Source of the DNA: Acidobacteriota bacterium
Lineage (GTDB): Bacteria > Acidobacteriota > Terriglobia > Terriglobales > Acidobacteriaceae
DNA length: 64,000 bases
NCBI GenBank assembly: GCA_021846945.1
Contig: JAJZVZ010000001.1
Coordinates: forward strand, 62,001-126,000
Direction: 5' to 3'
The first letter of the stretch is position 1; every line of letters begins with the position of its first letter. The notes beneath the pieces are model-generated. The model saw nothing but the letters and a program-made list of their open reading frames with translations, ran no database searches and was not told the DNA's origin. Positions 26,509 through 33,377 of this stretch are shown one piece after another. The position numbers and the translations under genes were made by a program.

Positions 26509-26522
26509 GTGACCACGGTCAC
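26509..26522. promoter_or_regulatory. Short inverted repeat in the typA/arsR intergenic region
   Basis: GTGACC (26509-26514) and GGTCAC (26517-26522) form a perfect 6-bp inverted repeat with a 2-bp centre. It lies 100 bp before the ArsR-type start and 200 bp before the typA start. It may be an operator half-site pair; significance is uncertain. Confidence 0.3.
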
Positions 26523-26565: not shown

Positions 26566-26603
26566 CTCCTGTGCATTTGCGAAATTACGCAAATGCACAG
26601 GAG
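26566..26603. promoter_or_regulatory. Perfect 16-bp inverted repeat, probable ArsR-family operator
   Basis: Arms CTCCTGTGCATTTGCG (26566-26581) and CGCAAATGCACAGGAG (26588-26603) are perfect complements around AAATTA. The repeat sits 18 bp before the ATG of the ArsR-type gene, where a dimeric winged-helix repressor would block its own promoter and the operon. The same sequence in RNA could fold, but it is followed by no T-tract, so an operator is the better reading. Confidence 0.75.
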
Positions 26604-26621: not shown

Positions 26622-26990
26622 ATGAGGAAAGCCATGAACGATGCGTCATGCGAGATGCTGGGCGCATTCTTTGCCACTTTCGCGAATACCACGCGCATGC
26701 GTATCTTCTGCGCCTTGCAACAGCGGCCCAGGACCGTCACCGAGATCGCAGAGGAAGCGGGGGTGTCGATCACGAATGCGTCACAGCATCTTCGCCTGAT
26801 GCGGGACCGGGGCGCCGTGATCGCGGAGAAGCATGCGCAGAGCGTTTACTACCACATTGCCGATCCTCGGTTTATTCAGGCTGCTGTCCTGATTCGCGAG
26901 GCCTTATTTGAAAGGCTGATACACGATGCGGCGCAGGCATCAGCCCGTCCGCAGCGCCGAAGATCGCATCACATCCTTCAACCCGCGTAA
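26622..26990 (+). CDS. ArsR-family (metalloregulator/sulfur-responsive type) repressor
   Basis: A 122-residue winged-helix protein from ATG 26622 with GGAG 7 bp upstream. The recognition part reads VTEIAEEAGVSITNASQHLR followed by LMRDRGAVIAEKHAQSVYYH, as in ArsR/SmtB proteins. Only two cysteines are present, C10 and C30. ArsR proteins that control sulfur oxidation (SqrR, SoxR and sHdrR types) sense sulfane sulfur through a cysteine pair, so this one may sense persulfide; the pair is not at the positions I know from those proteins. It is the first gene of the operon and lies next to a perfect palindrome. Confidence 0.88.
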   Translation: MRKAMNDASCEMLGAFFATFANTTRMRIFCALQQRPRTVTEIAEEAGVSITNASQHLRLMRDRGAVIAEKHAQSVYYHIADPRFIQAAVLIREALFERLIHDAAQASARPQRRRSHHILQPA

Positions 26991-27032
26991 CACGAGTGTC
27001 CGCTGTTACGCATAACCGAACGGAGAGATTCC

Positions 27033-27284
27033 ATGACCGAAGCAGTTGCAATCATCACAGCCGACAAAGTCGTCGATGCGCGGGGAACCGCCTGCCCAGG
27101 GCCTTTGCTGGAAGCCAAGAAAGGCATTGGCCAGGTCAAAGTAGGCCAGGTGCTTGAAATCAAATCCAACGACAAGGGTTCGCGCAAGGACATCGCGGCG
27201 TGGGCCGGCAAAGTGGGCCACGAGTTCCTCGGCCTTGTTGAGGCTGAAGGGCATGACCGTCTCTTCGTGCGCCGCAGGAAATAG
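27033..27284 (+). CDS. tusA: TusA-family sulfur carrier
   Basis: An 83-residue protein with the CPGP motif (C21) in DARGTACPGPLLEAKKGI. TusA carries sulfane sulfur as a persulfide on this cysteine. The C-terminal half (SNDKGSRKDIAAWAGKVGHE) is also typical of TusA. It is the second gene of the operon and GGAGAG precedes the start. Next to Hdr/Qmo-like and DsrE-like genes, a dissimilatory sulfur-trafficking role is more likely than tRNA thiolation. Confidence 0.92.
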   Translation: MTEAVAIITADKVVDARGTACPGPLLEAKKGIGQVKVGQVLEIKSNDKGSRKDIAAWAGKVGHEFLGLVEAEGHDRLFVRRRK

Positions 27285-27378
27285 TCTTGTTCGCCGATGG
27301 AAAAGGCACTCTGCCGGCCCGATCCAGGGTCGGCGGCGGTGGATCGTCACACCGGGCGATAACGAAATGAGGTGAAGG

Positions 27379-27876
27379 ATGACCGGCCCCTTTGTCCCCA
27401 AGATTCTAGTGCTGGCAACCGAGAAGTGCGCCTACCCGGGAGCCGACGCCGTCGGCAAGGCCCACCAGGAATATCCGTCCAACGTATACATCCTGCGCGT
27501 GCCCTCGCCGGTACTCTTTCCTGAGGATTTCTATCTGGGCTGCTACAACCAAGGGATTGACGGCATTCTCATTGCTGCCTGCGGGTCTGACTGCCCATAC
27601 CATGGCGCCTATGAGCGACTGGCCGCGCGCATTGACGCACTCACCTCCCACTTGAGCGCCGGCGGGCTCGAAATCGAGCGTATCCGCCTTACCGCCATCT
27701 GCACCGTTTGCATCAAGGCGTTTCTCAAGGAGGTTGCGCAAATGAGCGACAATCTGCATCGGCTCGGTCCGGTCAATCGCGCACTCGCTGAGCAACTGCA
27801 TCGCGAATCGGTGCAACGCCTGCGGGCAACCGCGCGCTCGCCTCAATTCGTGCCCGCGCTCCAGGGAGCTCTGTGA
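27379..27876 (+). CDS. MvhD/FrhD-type iron-sulfur electron-transfer protein
   Basis: A 165-residue protein starting at ATG 27379 with GAGGTG upstream. It follows MvhD organisation: KCAYPGADAVG (C17), DGILIAACGSDCPYHGAYE (C68 and C72) and ERIRLTAICTVCIKAF (C108, C111), ending with RLGP. MvhD carries a [2Fe-2S] cluster and passes electrons between HdrA and a partner. The cysteine that usually follows the second beta-strand is replaced by Pro/Ser (LRVPSPV), while C55 in LGCYNQG may compensate. In Qmo complexes this domain is usually fused to QmoB; here it is a separate gene. Its stop overlaps the next start. Confidence 0.85.
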   Translation: MTGPFVPKILVLATEKCAYPGADAVGKAHQEYPSNVYILRVPSPVLFPEDFYLGCYNQGIDGILIAACGSDCPYHGAYERLAARIDALTSHLSAGGLEIERIRLTAICTVCIKAFLKEVAQMSDNLHRLGPVNRALAEQLHRESVQRLRATARSPQFVPALQGAL

Positions 27877-29189
27877 TGAATACGCACATTAACTCCGATT
27901 TCGCCCCGGACGCACTGGTTATCGGCGCAGGAATCGCGGGTCTGCAATCGGCGCTTGATCTCGCCGACCAGGGACTGCAGGTGCTGCTGGTCGAGCGCCA
28001 GGCCAGCATTGGCGGGCACATGATCGCCCTAAGCAAGGTGTATCCAACGCTCGACTGCGCGAGTTGCATCACCACCCCAAAGATGTCCGCCGTGGCACAT
28101 CATCCCAACATTACAATCCTCACCAATACAGAAGTTGAGGGTATTGAAACCAGGGAGGAGGCGCATCATGTGCGCCTGCTGCAAAAGCCCACATACGTGA
28201 ACTTCGACAAGTGCATCGGCTGCCGCCTGTGCGAGTACGCCTGCGATACGGAGTATCCCGATCCATTCGAAGAAGGCCTCGGTTCGGTACGCGCCATCGC
28301 TGTGCCGTTCACAAACGCTATTCCGCAAAAGGCCGTTTTGAATGCGGAGGTCTGCGGTACATGCGGCACATGCGCGCGTGTCTGTCCGACAGGTGCGATT
28401 GAGTACGACCAGCAGCCGCGAAAGCTCACGATTCGCACGGATGCCGTGATTCTGGCTTCGGGTTTCAACCTGAATGCATTGACAATCAAGCCGCAATTCA
28501 ATGCGCAGCGGAGCCGGAACATCATCTCGCCGTTGATGCTGGAGCGACTGCTCGCGCCGCACGGCCCCTACGGCCGCGTACTGCGCCCCTCTGACGGCAA
28601 GATGCCTTCCTCCATTGCCTTCGTGCAGTGTGCGGGCTCACGCGATGAATCCATCGGGGTCTCCTATTGCTCGCGTGTCTGCTGCATGTATGCCATCAAG
28701 CAGGCCATGCTGCTGTCCGGCGCGCTGCCGTTGGCCGACATCACGATCTACTACATGGACATTCGCGCCTTTGGCAAAGGCTACGAGCAGTTCTTCCAGA
28801 ATGCAAAGGCGATGGGCATCAACTTTGTCCGCGGCAAGGTCGCGCGGATTGACCCAGTTGATGGCGGCGATTTATCGCTCCGCGTTGAAACCACGGAAGA
28901 TGCGGAGAACCCATTGCAGGTGCGCCACCACGACCTCGTCGTGCTGGCGCAAGGCATGATTCCCGGCTGGCAGCCAGCGGCGATTACGCCGGTAGCATGC
29001 GCCAGTGACGGCTTCATTGCCACGCCTTCGCTGGTCGCGCCCACGATCACTACGGCGCCCGGCATCTTTGTAGCGGGAACGGCGGCCGGGCCCAAGGATA
29101 TCGTGGACACCATCGCAGAGGCAGGCGCAGCGGCGATGCAAGCCAGCCAATACCTTCACCAGAAGCACTCCGCCATCCTGGTTGCCTGA
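27876..29189 (+). CDS. HdrA/QmoA-like FAD and iron-sulfur oxidoreductase subunit
   Basis: A 437-residue flavoprotein. The FAD-binding GxGxxG is at residues 17-22 (VIGAGIAGLQ), then GGHM and the HdrA hallmark PTLDCASCITTPKM (C61, C64). An inserted ferredoxin domain binds two clusters: C113, C116, C119, C123 and C160, C163, C166, C170. It lacks the N-terminal domain of full-length HdrA and so resembles QmoA in size and layout. It would take part in electron transfer at an HdrA-type flavin. ATG 27876 overlaps the MvhD-like stop. It lies in an operon with a second HdrA-like gene. Confidence 0.88.
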   Translation: MNTHINSDFAPDALVIGAGIAGLQSALDLADQGLQVLLVERQASIGGHMIALSKVYPTLDCASCITTPKMSAVAHHPNITILTNTEVEGIETREEAHHVRLLQKPTYVNFDKCIGCRLCEYACDTEYPDPFEEGLGSVRAIAVPFTNAIPQKAVLNAEVCGTCGTCARVCPTGAIEYDQQPRKLTIRTDAVILASGFNLNALTIKPQFNAQRSRNIISPLMLERLLAPHGPYGRVLRPSDGKMPSSIAFVQCAGSRDESIGVSYCSRVCCMYAIKQAMLLSGALPLADITIYYMDIRAFGKGYEQFFQNAKAMGINFVRGKVARIDPVDGGDLSLRVETTEDAENPLQVRHHDLVVLAQGMIPGWQPAAITPVACASDGFIATPSLVAPTITTAPGIFVAGTAAGPKDIVDTIAEAGAAAMQASQYLHQKHSAILVA

Positions 29190-29239
29190 GGCGTGCATCC
29201 AGTGAATGAGTTCCAGGGAATGAGCTAAAGAGGAATGGC

Positions 29240-31234
29240 ATGAGCAACAGCGACGAACTTCGGGCCAAGCACTACAACGAGCAGGAGCCACGACCCTGCG
29301 GCGAGGCGGAGTGCGATGAGGAAGCGCACACGCAGCAGCAGATTGCGCTCGCAGGTTGGCAAGCAGGCAACCGGCTCCGCGCGGACGGCGAAGAAGATCC
29401 TCTGCGCATCGGCGTGTATATCTGCCGCTGCGGAGGCAACATCTCTGACGTTGTCGATGTAGAACGCGTGGCCGAGACCGTGCGCTTGATTCCGGGCGTC
29501 ACCATCGCCAAGGTTCACACCTTTGTGTGCTCCGATCCAGGGCAGCACATGATCAGTAACGACATCCTGGAAGAAAATCTCGACCGGGTTGTGGTGGCAT
29601 CCTGCACTCCCTTCCTCCACGAGCAGACATTTCGCGGCGCGGTTGCACGCGGCGGCATGAATCCCTATCTCTACGAACACGTCAACATTCGAGAGCAGGC
29701 ATCATGGGCTCACAAGCACGATCCCGAAGGCGCAACAGCCAAAGCAATCCGCATGATTGCGGGCGCGGTAGGCAAGCTGCGCTATGCTCAGCCCCTTGAG
29801 CAGATCAAGCTTCCCAACCATCGTCGCGCTCTGGTCATCGGCGGCGGACTCGCCGGCATGAAAGCCGCGGCCGATCTAGCCTCCCGAGGTATCAAGGTGC
29901 TGCTGGTCGAGGCTGGCACAAGGCTGGGAGGACACCTCAACCAATGGGGAAAGGTCTATCCGAGCGAGCGCACTGCCGCGGAGTTGGTCGCGGAGCTGAC
30001 GCAGCGCGTTCAGCATGATCCCAATATCAAAGTGCTTCTCAACTCCAGGGTTACTGCGGTCAGCGGATTCATCGGCAACTTCAAGACGGCCATTGAGTCG
30101 CGGCATCACTCCGCAAGCATGCAGTCACGGGCCGAAGTTACTGTGGGCGCCATCATTATGGCTACGGGCTTTCGTCCATACGTTCCGCGCGACGGTGAGC
30201 TTCTTTACCACAGTCAGCCCTGCGTACTAACCATGCCGGAGTTTATTCAGCTTCTGAGCAGCGTAAGTCCCGACACAAAGAAGCTCACTTACCATCAACA
30301 GGCCATTCGCAAGATAGCTTTTCTGCACTGCGTAGGCAGCCGCCAATTGGACGGCGTGCATGAGCCCGGCGCTAATGGGCGCCTGAACACTTACTGCTCA
30401 CGCACCTGTTGCACAACCATCTTGCAGCAGGCGCTCGCTGTGCGTAGGCGATTTCCTGATGTTGAGGTCTTCGATTTCAATCAGGATATCCGCACTTACG
30501 GACGCGGTGAAGAAAACTACTACAGTGAAGCCAGCAAGGCCGGGGTTGTCTTCTTCCGCTATAACGGCGAAGAGCCGCCGCAGGTGCATCGCACTCCATC
30601 GCGGCGCATTAGCAATGGCGCGCTCACAGTTACTGTGAAGGATGCTCTCACGTGGGGCCAGGAACTTGAAGTCGCTGTGGACATGGTTGTGCTCGGAACC
30701 GGCATGATGCCCGGGCAAATCGAGGACCTCATCGGGCAGATGAAATTGGCCACCGGCGAAGACGGCTTCCTGCAGGAAGTGCATCCCAAGCTGCGCCCCG
30801 TCGAGGTCGCGGTAAATGGAGTGTTGCTGGCGGGGACCGCGCAAGGGCCCATGAACATTACTGAGACCCTCGCCGCCGCGGGAGCTGCAGCCGTGAAAGC
30901 CACGGCCATGTTTGCCAAAGAAGATGTCGAAGTGCACCCTTATGTGGCGCAAGTAGATCCTGCGCTCTGTCATGGAGAGGCGCAGTGCGTGACGCAGTGC
31001 GCGTATGAAGGCGCGCTCAAGCTCGTGGAAATGGAAGTTGACGGGGAAATTGTCAGCCGTGCTGAAGTAAATGCCGGCCTTTGCGTTGGCTGCGGAGCGT
31101 GCGTGGCCGTATGCCCACATCGTGCGATTAACCTGAACGGCTGGCGCCTGGACCAGTTTGAAGCGATGGTCGAAGGCATCGCGACCGATCTTCCCCAACC
31201 GCCTTGTGCGTCAGAACTGGTCAGCATCCATTGA
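29240..31234 (+). CDS. Full-length HdrA/QmoB-like FAD and iron-sulfur subunit
   Basis: A 664-residue protein. After an unusual acidic, His/Gln-rich stretch of about 50 residues comes the HdrA N-terminal domain (RIGVYICRCGGNISDVVD, C62 and C64). The FAD site is ALVIGGGLAGMKAAADLASR near residue 195. The C-terminal ferredoxin has one regular cluster site (C615, C618, C621, C625). The other reads C577-x2-E580-x2-C583-x3-C587, so its second cysteine is replaced by Glu. QmoB normally carries an MvhD domain at its C-terminus; here that domain is the separate gene upstream. SD is AGAGGAA. A flavin-based electron-transfer role is likely, but bifurcation is unproven. Confidence 0.87.
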   Translation: MSNSDELRAKHYNEQEPRPCGEAECDEEAHTQQQIALAGWQAGNRLRADGEEDPLRIGVYICRCGGNISDVVDVERVAETVRLIPGVTIAKVHTFVCSDPGQHMISNDILEENLDRVVVASCTPFLHEQTFRGAVARGGMNPYLYEHVNIREQASWAHKHDPEGATAKAIRMIAGAVGKLRYAQPLEQIKLPNHRRALVIGGGLAGMKAAADLASRGIKVLLVEAGTRLGGHLNQWGKVYPSERTAAELVAELTQRVQHDPNIKVLLNSRVTAVSGFIGNFKTAIESRHHSASMQSRAEVTVGAIIMATGFRPYVPRDGELLYHSQPCVLTMPEFIQLLSSVSPDTKKLTYHQQAIRKIAFLHCVGSRQLDGVHEPGANGRLNTYCSRTCCTTILQQALAVRRRFPDVEVFDFNQDIRTYGRGEENYYSEASKAGVVFFRYNGEEPPQVHRTPSRRISNGALTVTVKDALTWGQELEVAVDMVVLGTGMMPGQIEDLIGQMKLATGEDGFLQEVHPKLRPVEVAVNGVLLAGTAQGPMNITETLAAAGAAAVKATAMFAKEDVEVHPYVAQVDPALCHGEAQCVTQCAYEGALKLVEMEVDGEIVSRAEVNAGLCVGCGACVAVCPHRAINLNGWRLDQFEAMVEGIATDLPQPPCASELVSIH

Positions 31235-31266
31235 CAGCGTAACCGTGGCCAGAGAGGAAATACGAG

Positions 31267-31584
31267 ATGGCAATGAAGACACTCACCACAGAACAGAAAC
31301 AGGCACTGGCGGCGTTGCGCGCCTCTCTCGGCGGCATCAGCGAGCAAAAGCGGCAGGCGAAGAAGCATCTGCTTGCCGCGCGCCAGGCAATCCACAAGCT
31401 TCTTGCAGCGCATCCAGCCACCATTCCCCAGATCGCAGATGCTCTCCAGATGCCCTCCGATGAAGCGCTCTGGCACGTAACTGGCATGCGCAAATACGGC
31501 AAAGTCATCGAGAGCGGCGAGGAGGACGATTATCCGCTCTATGCACTGGCGGTGCGGGAAGAAGAGCCGGCGGCCGCTCACTAG
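31267..31584 (+). CDS. Small winged-helix-like protein inside the sulfur operon
   Basis: A 105-residue protein of unknown function. Residues 1-40 form a basic helix (LRASLGGISEQKRQAKKHLL). Residues 45-98 read like a winged helix-turn-helix (TIPQIADALQMPSDEALWHV, then MRKYGKVIESGEED). It has no cysteine, so it cannot carry sulfur or an iron-sulfur cluster by itself. Tight spacing (32 bp before it, 19 bp after it) shows it belongs to the operon. It may be a second regulator or an assembly factor for the Hdr/Qmo-like complex. Confidence 0.7.
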   Translation: MAMKTLTTEQKQALAALRASLGGISEQKRQAKKHLLAARQAIHKLLAAHPATIPQIADALQMPSDEALWHVTGMRKYGKVIESGEEDDYPLYALAVREEEPAAAH

Positions 31585-31603
31585 CGCCGGGACAGGAGAC
31601 ACT

Positions 31604-32782
31604 TTGACACGCATTGTGAATACATCCCTGATGCGGAAGATCAAGAAGCACGGCGCGGGCCGCAATCTCGACGTAAGCGCCTGCTTCAACTGCGGCAACT
31701 GCACTGCGGTGTGCCCACTGGCAGCGGACTCCGGCGGCTTTCCGCGGCGCGTGATTCGCATGGCGCAGGTGGGCATGGAGCAGGAATTGCTCGCCAGTGA
31801 AGAACTATGGCGCTGCTACGCCTGCGGCGAATGCACACAGACCTGCCCCCGTCAGGCGGATCCGGCCGCATTCATGGCCGCCGCACGTAGCTATGCTATC
31901 GCGGGCTACGATTTTACCGGACTGGCGGCACTGGCGAATCGCTCGGCGCTCGGCAACTTGGCGGTCTTCGCAGTCTTCTCCGCTGTATTTTCTGCGTTGC
32001 TGCTCAGCAGGATGAATCCCGGCCACCCGAATTTTCCGCTCTTTGATTTCCTTCCCGGAGAATGGATCCATCAGATCGGCGTGGCTTTGTTTGTCGTAGT
32101 CGGCCTTAGCATGTTTTCGGGCATTGCGTCGATGACCTGGCGCATCTGGCGGCAGAGCCGCAGCCAGGGCGCCACGCTCCATTTTGCAGCCTTGCCGGGA
32201 GCTGTCTTTTCCGCTCTTTCAGATGCGCTCTTCCATCGCCGCTTCCAGCAATGTGAAGCCGAATCTGATGCCGAAGTACTTGCAGCGCAGCCGTGGTATC
32301 AGCGCCCGTGGCTTGTGCACGCTTCCGTCATGGGCGGCTTTCTGGCCATGCTACTGGCCACCACGCTCGACTTCCTTCTAAAGCCCATCGGCTCTACGGT
32401 TCCGCCGTGGTATCCCATGCGTATTCTGGGTACCGCAGGCGGCATTGTCTGCCTCTACGGTCTGTCTATCGTGCTGTTACGGCGTGCGCAGGGCAAGGAG
32501 CACCCTTACAAAAAGAGCAGCTTCGCCGACTGGTTCTTTCCGGTCCTGCTCACCGTAACCGTCCTTACTGGGATTTTGAGTGAGCTGATTGTGTATCTGC
32601 CGTCCCCTACAACCTTTGGCCACGTAGTCTTCTTTGCCCATGTGGTGCTGGCCATGGACCTGGTGGCTCTACTGCCGCTCACCAAGTTTGCGCATGTGCT
32701 CTATCGCACGCTGGCTCTAGCGCTATTCGCCTGGCGTCACGCTCCCGCCGCGGCGGCCGCTTCAGTTGGCGTTGAAGCATAG
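31604..32782 (+). CDS. QmoC/HdrC-E-like membrane-bound iron-sulfur subunit
   Basis: A 392-residue protein; TTG 31604 has GGAG about 8 bp upstream and gives normal QmoC length. The soluble N-terminus binds two [4Fe-4S] clusters: C27, C30, C33, C37 and C71, C74, C77, C81, as in HdrC. It is followed by a membrane part with about six hydrophobic segments starting NLAVFAVFSAVFSALL, of the cytochrome b/NarI type seen in QmoC. Histidines in the membrane segments (WLVHASVMGGF, TTFGHVVFFAHVVLAMD, KFAHVLY) may bind haem b. It should exchange electrons with the quinone pool for the HdrA-like subunits. Confidence 0.87.
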   Translation: MTRIVNTSLMRKIKKHGAGRNLDVSACFNCGNCTAVCPLAADSGGFPRRVIRMAQVGMEQELLASEELWRCYACGECTQTCPRQADPAAFMAAARSYAIAGYDFTGLAALANRSALGNLAVFAVFSAVFSALLLSRMNPGHPNFPLFDFLPGEWIHQIGVALFVVVGLSMFSGIASMTWRIWRQSRSQGATLHFAALPGAVFSALSDALFHRRFQQCEAESDAEVLAAQPWYQRPWLVHASVMGGFLAMLLATTLDFLLKPIGSTVPPWYPMRILGTAGGIVCLYGLSIVLLRRAQGKEHPYKKSSFADWFFPVLLTVTVLTGILSELIVYLPSPTTFGHVVFFAHVVLAMDLVALLPLTKFAHVLYRTLALALFAWRHAPAAAAASVGVEA

Positions 32783-32816
32783 TCAGACCGTTTCTGCCTT
32801 GAAAGGAAGCACCATC

Positions 32817-33377
32817 ATGATCACCGCATCAAACGACGTCGAACTCCAAAGCACGATTCAACAACTCGTCGAACGCGTCGACGCACTTGAGAAATCCGCC
32901 GGCAACAACCGGCTCTCAATCGGCGTAATGAGCGGCAATCTCGACACAACCATCGCCGCCTTCATCATTGCCATGGGCGCCGTGGCATACGACATCGAGG
33001 TGGACATGTTCTTCACCTTCTGGGCCACCGCGGCTTTGCGCGATCCCAAAAAGTCGCCGCCGAAGGGATTCTTGGACAAGATGTTCGGATGGATGCTTCC
33101 ACGCAGTTCGCAGGCATTACCGCTCTCGAAGATGCAGATGGCAGGCATGGGTCCAAGGATGATTCGCTCTGTCATGAAGGCGCGTGGCGTCAAGTCACTT
33201 GAAGAGCTGATGAAAGAAGCTGCCGAGTTTGGGGTGCGCATCCACGTGTGCGAAATGTCGATGGGCGTGATGGGGCTCAAAGAGGGAGAGATGATCGACT
33301 ACCCGAACCTGGATTACGTCGGTGTCGGCTCATTTATCCAGATGATCAGCGAATCCAAGCAGGTCCTCTTCCTTTAG
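32817..33377 (+). CDS. DsrE2-type sulfurtransferase/sulfur carrier
   Basis: A 186-residue protein from ATG 32817 with AAAGGAAG upstream. Residues 32-75 (RLSIGVMSGNLDTTIAAFII, then FFTFWATAAL) and 105-150 (KMQMAGMGPRMIRSVMKARG, then RIHVCEMSMGVMG) match the DsrE/DsrF/DrsH-like DsrE2 family. C145 is its only cysteine and the likely persulfide site. A short coiled coil (STIQQLVERVDALEK) precedes the fold. DsrE2 and TusA proteins commonly hand sulfur to each other in dissimilatory sulfur operons, and both are in this operon. It is the last gene; no terminator stands out after it. Confidence 0.88.
   Translation: MITASNDVELQSTIQQLVERVDALEKSAGNNRLSIGVMSGNLDTTIAAFIIAMGAVAYDIEVDMFFTFWATAALRDPKKSPPKGFLDKMFGWMLPRSSQALPLSKMQMAGMGPRMIRSVMKARGVKSLEELMKEAAEFGVRIHVCEMSMGVMGLKEGEMIDYPNLDYVGVGSFIQMISESKQVLFL

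Follow-up and report, generated by a model that had tools for sequence, protein, structure and literature searches.

A Qmo/Hdr-like operon with TusA and DsrE-type carriers in Acidobacteriota, probably coupling carrier-bound sulfur to the respiratory chain

Described relatives and the acidobacterial operon

The canonical (type I) QmoABC complex consists of two HdrA-type flavoproteins and a QmoC with an HdrC head and a membrane cytochrome b. A second group, 'type II' Qmo, has been described as HdrA-like QmoAB(C) occurring with or without Dsr/Apr, and the passages devoted to it leave its role open and call for experiments (Neukirchen 2023, PMC10504309). Here we describe an operon of eight plus-strand genes, arsR-tusA-mvhD-qmoA-like-qmoB-like-winged helix-qmoC-like-dsrE2, at positions 26622-33377 of a 64-kb stretch of DNA (hereafter the window; contig JAJZVZ010000001.1 of the Acidobacteriota assembly GCA_021846945.1). 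The genes are separated by short gaps or overlap, as do mvhD and qmoA. The operon probably encodes an undescribed enzyme system through which electrons pass between the respiratory chain and sulfur bound to carriers. A preliminary description, made from the sequence alone, had named the eight families, and all of them were borne out. Our search of the open-access literature found no description of a TusA-linked Qmo/Hdr operon.

The operon resembles canonical QmoABC in its two flavoproteins and its membrane QmoC, but several properties set them apart. The QmoC-like protein scores 184 bits against the curated equivalog model NF038018, under its 300-bit cut-off, whereas the canonical QmoC encoded elsewhere in the same genome reaches 366 bits. 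Canonical QmoB ends in an MvhD domain (residues 613-750); in contrast, the QmoB-like protein of the operon ends after its 2x4Fe-4S motifs, and MvhD is a separate gene whose product carries a C-terminal CxxC (Cys108, Cys111) that is invariant (75/75) and absent from the MvhD-type domain ending canonical QmoB. The QmoB-like protein is also nearer to methanogen HdrA than canonical QmoB is (398 vs 228 bits), and when a tree is rooted at its midpoint, the QmoA and the QmoB of the operon fall into clades of their own, distinct from the canonical pair (supports 0.80 and 1.00). The operon is, moreover, not tied to sat/aprAB and has genes for TusA, DsrE and a winged-helix protein.

With type II Qmo the operon shares a QmoAB pair that resembles HdrA more than it resembles canonical QmoAB, as well as independence from Apr/Dsr, whereas the passages on type II in PMC10504309 mention no linkage to TusA, DsrE or winged-helix genes. 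As characterised there, type II Qmo is the nearest described group, and the module plausibly belongs to it, judged by the described traits.

In the sHdr system (HdrC1B1A-hyp-HdrC2B2, LbpA), too, TusA and DsrE-type carriers accompany an Hdr-type core, but the operon has two HdrA proteins and QmoC, no LbpA gene and no double HdrB/HdrC set. The GcvH-family genes of the host are found only on two other contigs (C244 and C116), none of them in the operon cluster. The YTD cluster (YedE-TusA-DsrE) of sulfur disproportionators (PMC12998232, PMC8528874) has the same kinds of carrier; a YedE-type permease is, however, absent from the operon and from the identified conserved neighbour families, and an Hdr/Qmo core is found instead. 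YTD clusters are present in marine Acidobacteriota (PMC8528874), and the peatland Acidobacteria SbA1-7 reportedly have neither tusA nor dsrE2 (PMC6018796). The MetVF-HdrABC-MvhD and FlxABCD-HdrABC arrangements resemble the module in having HdrA with a separate MvhD and, for some loci, HdrC/HdrB, but its conserved set holds no Flx genes, and MetF/MetV occur in a small minority of loci.

Conservation of the sulfur carriers and the electron-transfer core

A GTDB scan with a QmoA-like alignment found 576 relatives, of which the best 80 were examined. These loci were chosen by QmoA similarity alone and read by tblastn and a codon-usage gene caller (high-GC DNA); linkage counts include only loci with enough flanking DNA, and phylum names are those of record titles or labels of metagenome-assembled genomes (MAGs), so that single records ('Rhodospirillales', 'Silvanigrella') may be misbinned. 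The core was found with TusA in 69/70 loci, with MvhD and the QmoB-like protein in 73/74 each, with the winged-helix protein in 68/70, with QmoC or HdrC in 61/62, and with DsrE2 or a DsrE-like protein of 124 amino acids (aa) in 66/68. Most exceptions trace to a single aberrant locus, L081, a second copy in a planctomycete-labelled MAG (that of L071), which reads QmoA-winged helix-QmoC without QmoB, MvhD or TusA (L081:2400-5200). The loci are labelled Acidobacteria, Planctomycetota, Verrucomicrobia, Armatimonadota, Chloroflexi/Anaerolineae and Desulfobacterota, with Desulfosarcina cetonica (L090) as a carrier known by species name, and the association of TusA/DsrE carriers with a Qmo/HdrA-type core, as originally claimed, thus holds in many phyla. 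All eight genes stand in order in 12 of 80 same-genus genomes, the host included (QmoC 67-81% identical), and a slightly modified order is seen again in dozens of genomes from other phyla, from which we conclude that the arrangement is not due to chance. One genome of another family (G147) has seven of the eight genes together with a DsrE-like gene. The close GTDB relatives of the host are labelled Acidobacteria; many are MAGs that, judged by their sample names, apparently come from mine-drainage surveys.

The TusA gene (27033-27284, plus strand) belongs to PF01206 (69 bits, cut-off 28.6 bits) and has the CPxP site in the form CPGP, its active-site Cys21 being invariant in 67/67 loci. It is the only TusA gene of the host genome, and each of the 12 same-genus operon genomes has exactly one, inside the operon. 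TusA is present in just 3 of the 68 same-genus genomes without the operon, one of which (G018) has it in a divergent version of the cluster, and it is absent from 65/80 in total (Fisher p = 7.6e-12, uncorrected for kinship). As TusA is almost confined to operon carriers in the genus, a housekeeping role for it is unlikely. TusA functions in tRNA thiolation in Escherichia coli, and the carriers might on that precedent serve biosynthesis (tRNA thiolation, molybdenum cofactor or Fe-S assembly), their link to the redox complex being purely regulatory; with TusA missing from most of the genus and the gene order fixed across phyla, we regard this as very improbable. The DsrE2-family protein (32817-33377, plus strand, 186 aa; 203 aa if read from 32766) scores 151 bits for PF13686, yet fails the NF047629 equivalog cut-off (57 vs 210 bits). 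It has a single invariant cysteine in 37/37 sequences, C145 in the shorter reading and C162 in the longer. A second DsrE2-family gene lies elsewhere in the host genome (G000:C1:6581-7021).

The remaining core genes, all on the plus strand, encode an MvhD/FlpD iron-sulfur protein (27379-27876; PF02662, 73 bits), the QmoA-like short HdrA with an FAD domain and two 4Fe-4S motifs (27876-29189, with an alternative overlapping GTG start at 27873), the QmoB-like HdrA with an N-terminal Cys cluster and C-terminal 2x4Fe-4S (29240-31234), and the QmoC-like protein, an HdrC-type 2x4Fe-4S head joined to a membrane cytochrome b part (31604-32782; its start codon, at 31541, 31604 or 31631, is uncertain). 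The two flavoproteins score 441 and 482 bits against the HdrA2 model, and none of the operon TusA, QmoC, HdrA and DsrE2 reaches an NCBIfam equivalog or exception cut-off. The cysteines of the iron-sulfur motifs are invariant in the QmoA-like proteins (85/85) and nearly all invariant in the QmoB-like and QmoC proteins across the examined loci, and the QmoC head, with eight cysteines, is accompanied by a near-invariant haem-type histidine. Two mutually exclusive outlets occur: membrane QmoC in 44 loci, and an HdrC of about 100 aa with a CCG HdrB-like protein of about 309 aa in 17, these being Desulfobacterota-labelled loci and one other. The preliminary description had noted the absence of HdrB, which is correct for the window, where searches found no CCG match, but not in general. 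The 105-aa protein (31267-31584, plus strand) has no Pfam or NCBIfam match and is predicted to be a winged helix (AlphaFold2 pLDDT, the model's per-residue confidence, 83), with ArsR/SmtB-type folds as its best PDB matches. Kinship with DsrD was considered and dismissed: among numerous winged-helix folds, DsrD (1wq2) came no higher than rank 33, and the two proteins have just the fold in common.

We favour, with some confidence, a dedicated membrane-bound complex that would transfer electrons between TusA/DsrE and quinone. The QmoA-like and QmoB-like flavin/iron-sulfur subunits and the modified MvhD would make up the cytoplasmic core, which QmoC would connect to the (mena)quinone pool; in many Desulfobacterota, HdrC and the HdrB-like CCG protein would take the place of QmoC. 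DsrE2 would load or unload TusA, and TusA would bring sulfane sulfur, as a persulfide, to the core, where it would be oxidised or reduced with exchange of electrons with quinone. By analogy to DsrD, the winged-helix protein may assist the complex or regulate it. This picture is consistent with the invariance or near-invariance of the iron-sulfur cysteines, the haem-type histidine and the TusA and DsrE2 cysteines, with the carrier linkage and the single TusA per operon genome, with the CoA-disulfide-reductase/rhodanese flavoproteins encoded beside the operon in several loci from Acidobacteria and the rhodanese-like proteins beside some Desulfobacterota loci, with the lack of an obligate catalytic partner, with the two mutually exclusive outlets, with the GltD/NAD(P)H-type insertion in the QmoA of G018 and with the alignment of ArsR Cys30 to YgaV. 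A putative sulfur transfer from the carriers to the flavin/iron-sulfur core is plausible. A broader proposal, which we put forward more tentatively and with slightly more doubt than trust, is that some type II Qmo proteins, if not all, serve in quinone-coupled oxidation (or reduction) of TusA-bound sulfane sulfur at an HdrA/Qmo-type core, independent of Dsr, Sox, sHdr-lipoate and Apr.

As to direction, simple quinone coupling favours oxidation because the persulfide/sulfide potentials lie below that of menaquinone, and a reductive direction would therefore require a second, low-potential donor. The reductive, confurcating version of the favoured explanation would make the operon a TusA-dependent reductase of sulfur, polysulfide or thiol persulfides, in which NAD(P)H or ferredoxin (via MvhD) and quinol together would give sulfide for detoxification or sulfur respiration. 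Electrons to HdrA usually come through MvhD, a GltD/NAD(P)H domain lies within the QmoA of G018, the HdrB-like CCG subunit occurs in 17 loci, and CoA-disulfide-reductase/rhodanese genes stand nearby. The conserved set, however, lacks genes for a hydrogenase, Flx or a formate dehydrogenase, and quinol by itself is too weak a reductant for persulfides; we consider this version distinctly less probable.

Several points weigh against a TusA/DsrE-to-quinone complex. In its QmoC form, the complex lacks an HdrB-type CCG site at which persulfides could be cleaved or oxidised, and the carriers could instead pass their sulfur to a different enzyme, sharing no more than regulation with the complex. The cysteine-rich family f9, found beside 15/80 loci, may hint at another substrate. 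Finally, the ArsR protein lacks the C-terminal cysteine that YgaV/SqrR-type sensors typically have as their second one, and has Cys10 instead.

A module in which TusA and DsrE-type carriers are constant members offers a concrete, testable substrate for HdrA-like proteins of the type II Qmo sort, as that group is outlined in the passages cited above. If the proposed function is correct, sulfane-sulfur respiration would occur in many Acidobacteriota, Planctomycetota, Armatimonadota and Anaerolineae now called non-sulfur organisms, and surveys by dsr, apr, sox or sHdr markers would overlook them. Annotations that take such a QmoC as evidence of sulfate reduction would be misleading. On the broader and more tentative proposal, the complex would be one more cytoplasmic pathway of sulfur energy metabolism and represent a widespread, so far unnamed respiratory complex.

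Relation to sulfate-reduction and one-carbon pathways

No dsrA, aprA, soxB or CCG (HdrB-type) match was found inside the window in family searches, in agreement with the preliminary description of an operon without APS (adenosine 5'-phosphosulfate) reductase. That statement does not extend to the organism. The host genome (a 5.3-Mb draft, 99% complete, with the window on contig C39) carries dsrA (596 bits), dsrB (472 bits) and dsrMKJOP genes outside the window contig, and contig C204 carries aprA (800 bits), canonical qmoABC and sat; soxB was not found in the genome by a marker-family search. The operon QmoA, QmoB and QmoC are 35, 28 and 29% identical to these canonical counterparts, and since the host has canonical qmoABC with aprA and sat elsewhere, the operon represents an additional, paralogous Qmo-like complex. 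The canonical locus also contains, downstream of sat, a long open reading frame (ORF) resembling phosphoenolpyruvate synthase/pyruvate-water dikinase (L040:3896-6457).

The coexistence of these systems in the host raises the possibility that the operon is a spare QmoABC, a second quinone-linked complex for the APS reductase/Dsr pathway in which TusA and DsrE2 feed DsrC/DsrAB. Among 149 relatives, dsrA is indeed enriched in operon carriers (6/13 vs 6/136, p = 9e-5). We also sought dsrA and aprA in 54 carrier genomes, the completeness of those reached through loci not being known: about 26 have dsrA, aprA is missing from over half, and 28 lack both, seven of the latter being same-genus MAGs that are 87-99% complete. 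Neither APS reductase nor sulfite reductase is thus an obligate partner; the operon and the sulfate-reduction systems frequently share a genome, yet each can do without the other. In addition, canonical Qmo stays beside sat/aprA while the operon lies elsewhere, and the operon QmoA and QmoB fall outside the canonical clades. With over half of the carriers lacking both genes, we rejected the spare complex as a general function and consider it unlikely.

The operon is likewise not always accompanied by a methyl or formate pathway. MetF adjoins 6/80 and MetV 7/80 loci, as might be expected if the module were a Moorella-type HdrABC-MvhD/MetVF methylene-tetrahydrofolate reductase complex, or another one-carbon module, with tusA a neighbour by chance. 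These loci are all Desulfobacterota-labelled, however; no acidobacterial, planctomycete, armatimonad or chloroflexi locus has either gene beside it, while nearly all have TusA. With MetF/MetV at few loci and TusA at nearly all, this reading was rejected as a general function, and the chance that it applies appears slight.

Upstream regulatory DNA and variant loci

The first gene encodes an ArsR/SmtB-family regulator (26622-26990, plus strand; HTH_5 39 bits; NF033788 68.9 bits, over the cut-off). Its Cys10 and Cys30 are invariant in 12/12 same-genus loci, and in an alignment Cys30 falls on the ILC cysteine of E. coli YgaV and of HlyU, which supports but does not prove a role as thiol/persulfide sensor. 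Matches of this protein to Csa3 in PADLOC look like generic winged-helix matches and were not taken as defence. Upstream lies a perfect inverted repeat, TGCATTTGCG-AAATTA-CGCAAATGCA (26572-26597, no strand), of which the window holds no other exact copy and which is likely the ArsR operator; ArsR would act there as a thiol/persulfide-responsive repressor. A TTGC...GCAA dyad stands directly 5' of arsR in 12/12 same-genus loci, and its arms vary on both sides yet stay complementary (TACTTGC/GCAAGTA in L048, TAGTTGC/GCAACTA in L045). The same dyad is found 5' of tusA in L069, L070 and the planctomycete-labelled L071 and L073-L079. Further upstream, the conserved GTGA-N6-TCAC dyad GTGACCACGGTCAC (26509-26522, no strand) resembles a CRP/FNR-family site and would be bound by a protein of that kind; it occurs in exact form 5' of arsR in 10/12 same-genus loci (the window, L041-L048 and L051) and also in L070.

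Variants of the module were seen as well. The sister cluster of G018 (L055:9188-16292) has TusA, QmoB and DsrE2 48, 40 and 49% identical to those of the operon, and a GltD/NAD(P)H-type module interrupts its 903-aa QmoA between the two ferredoxin motifs, showing that such Qmo-like cores couple to other electron carriers. In G043 (L057:4001-10066), one 1491-aa ORF fuses a QmoA with a GltD-like insertion to QmoB, with QmoC before it, MvhD after it and no TusA. Family f9 is a Cys-rich protein of about 230 aa with the motif RKCYARGCP.NLCPHV (L119:6785-7495 and 14 other loci) and no Pfam or NCBIfam match; in loci labelled Desulfobacterota it adjoins the module in either its HdrC/HdrB or its QmoC form. 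An outer-membrane protein of FadL/OMPP1 type (family f10), which might import a hydrophobic substrate, is found near the operon in about ten loci (for example L064:4748-6055, and similarly in L121).

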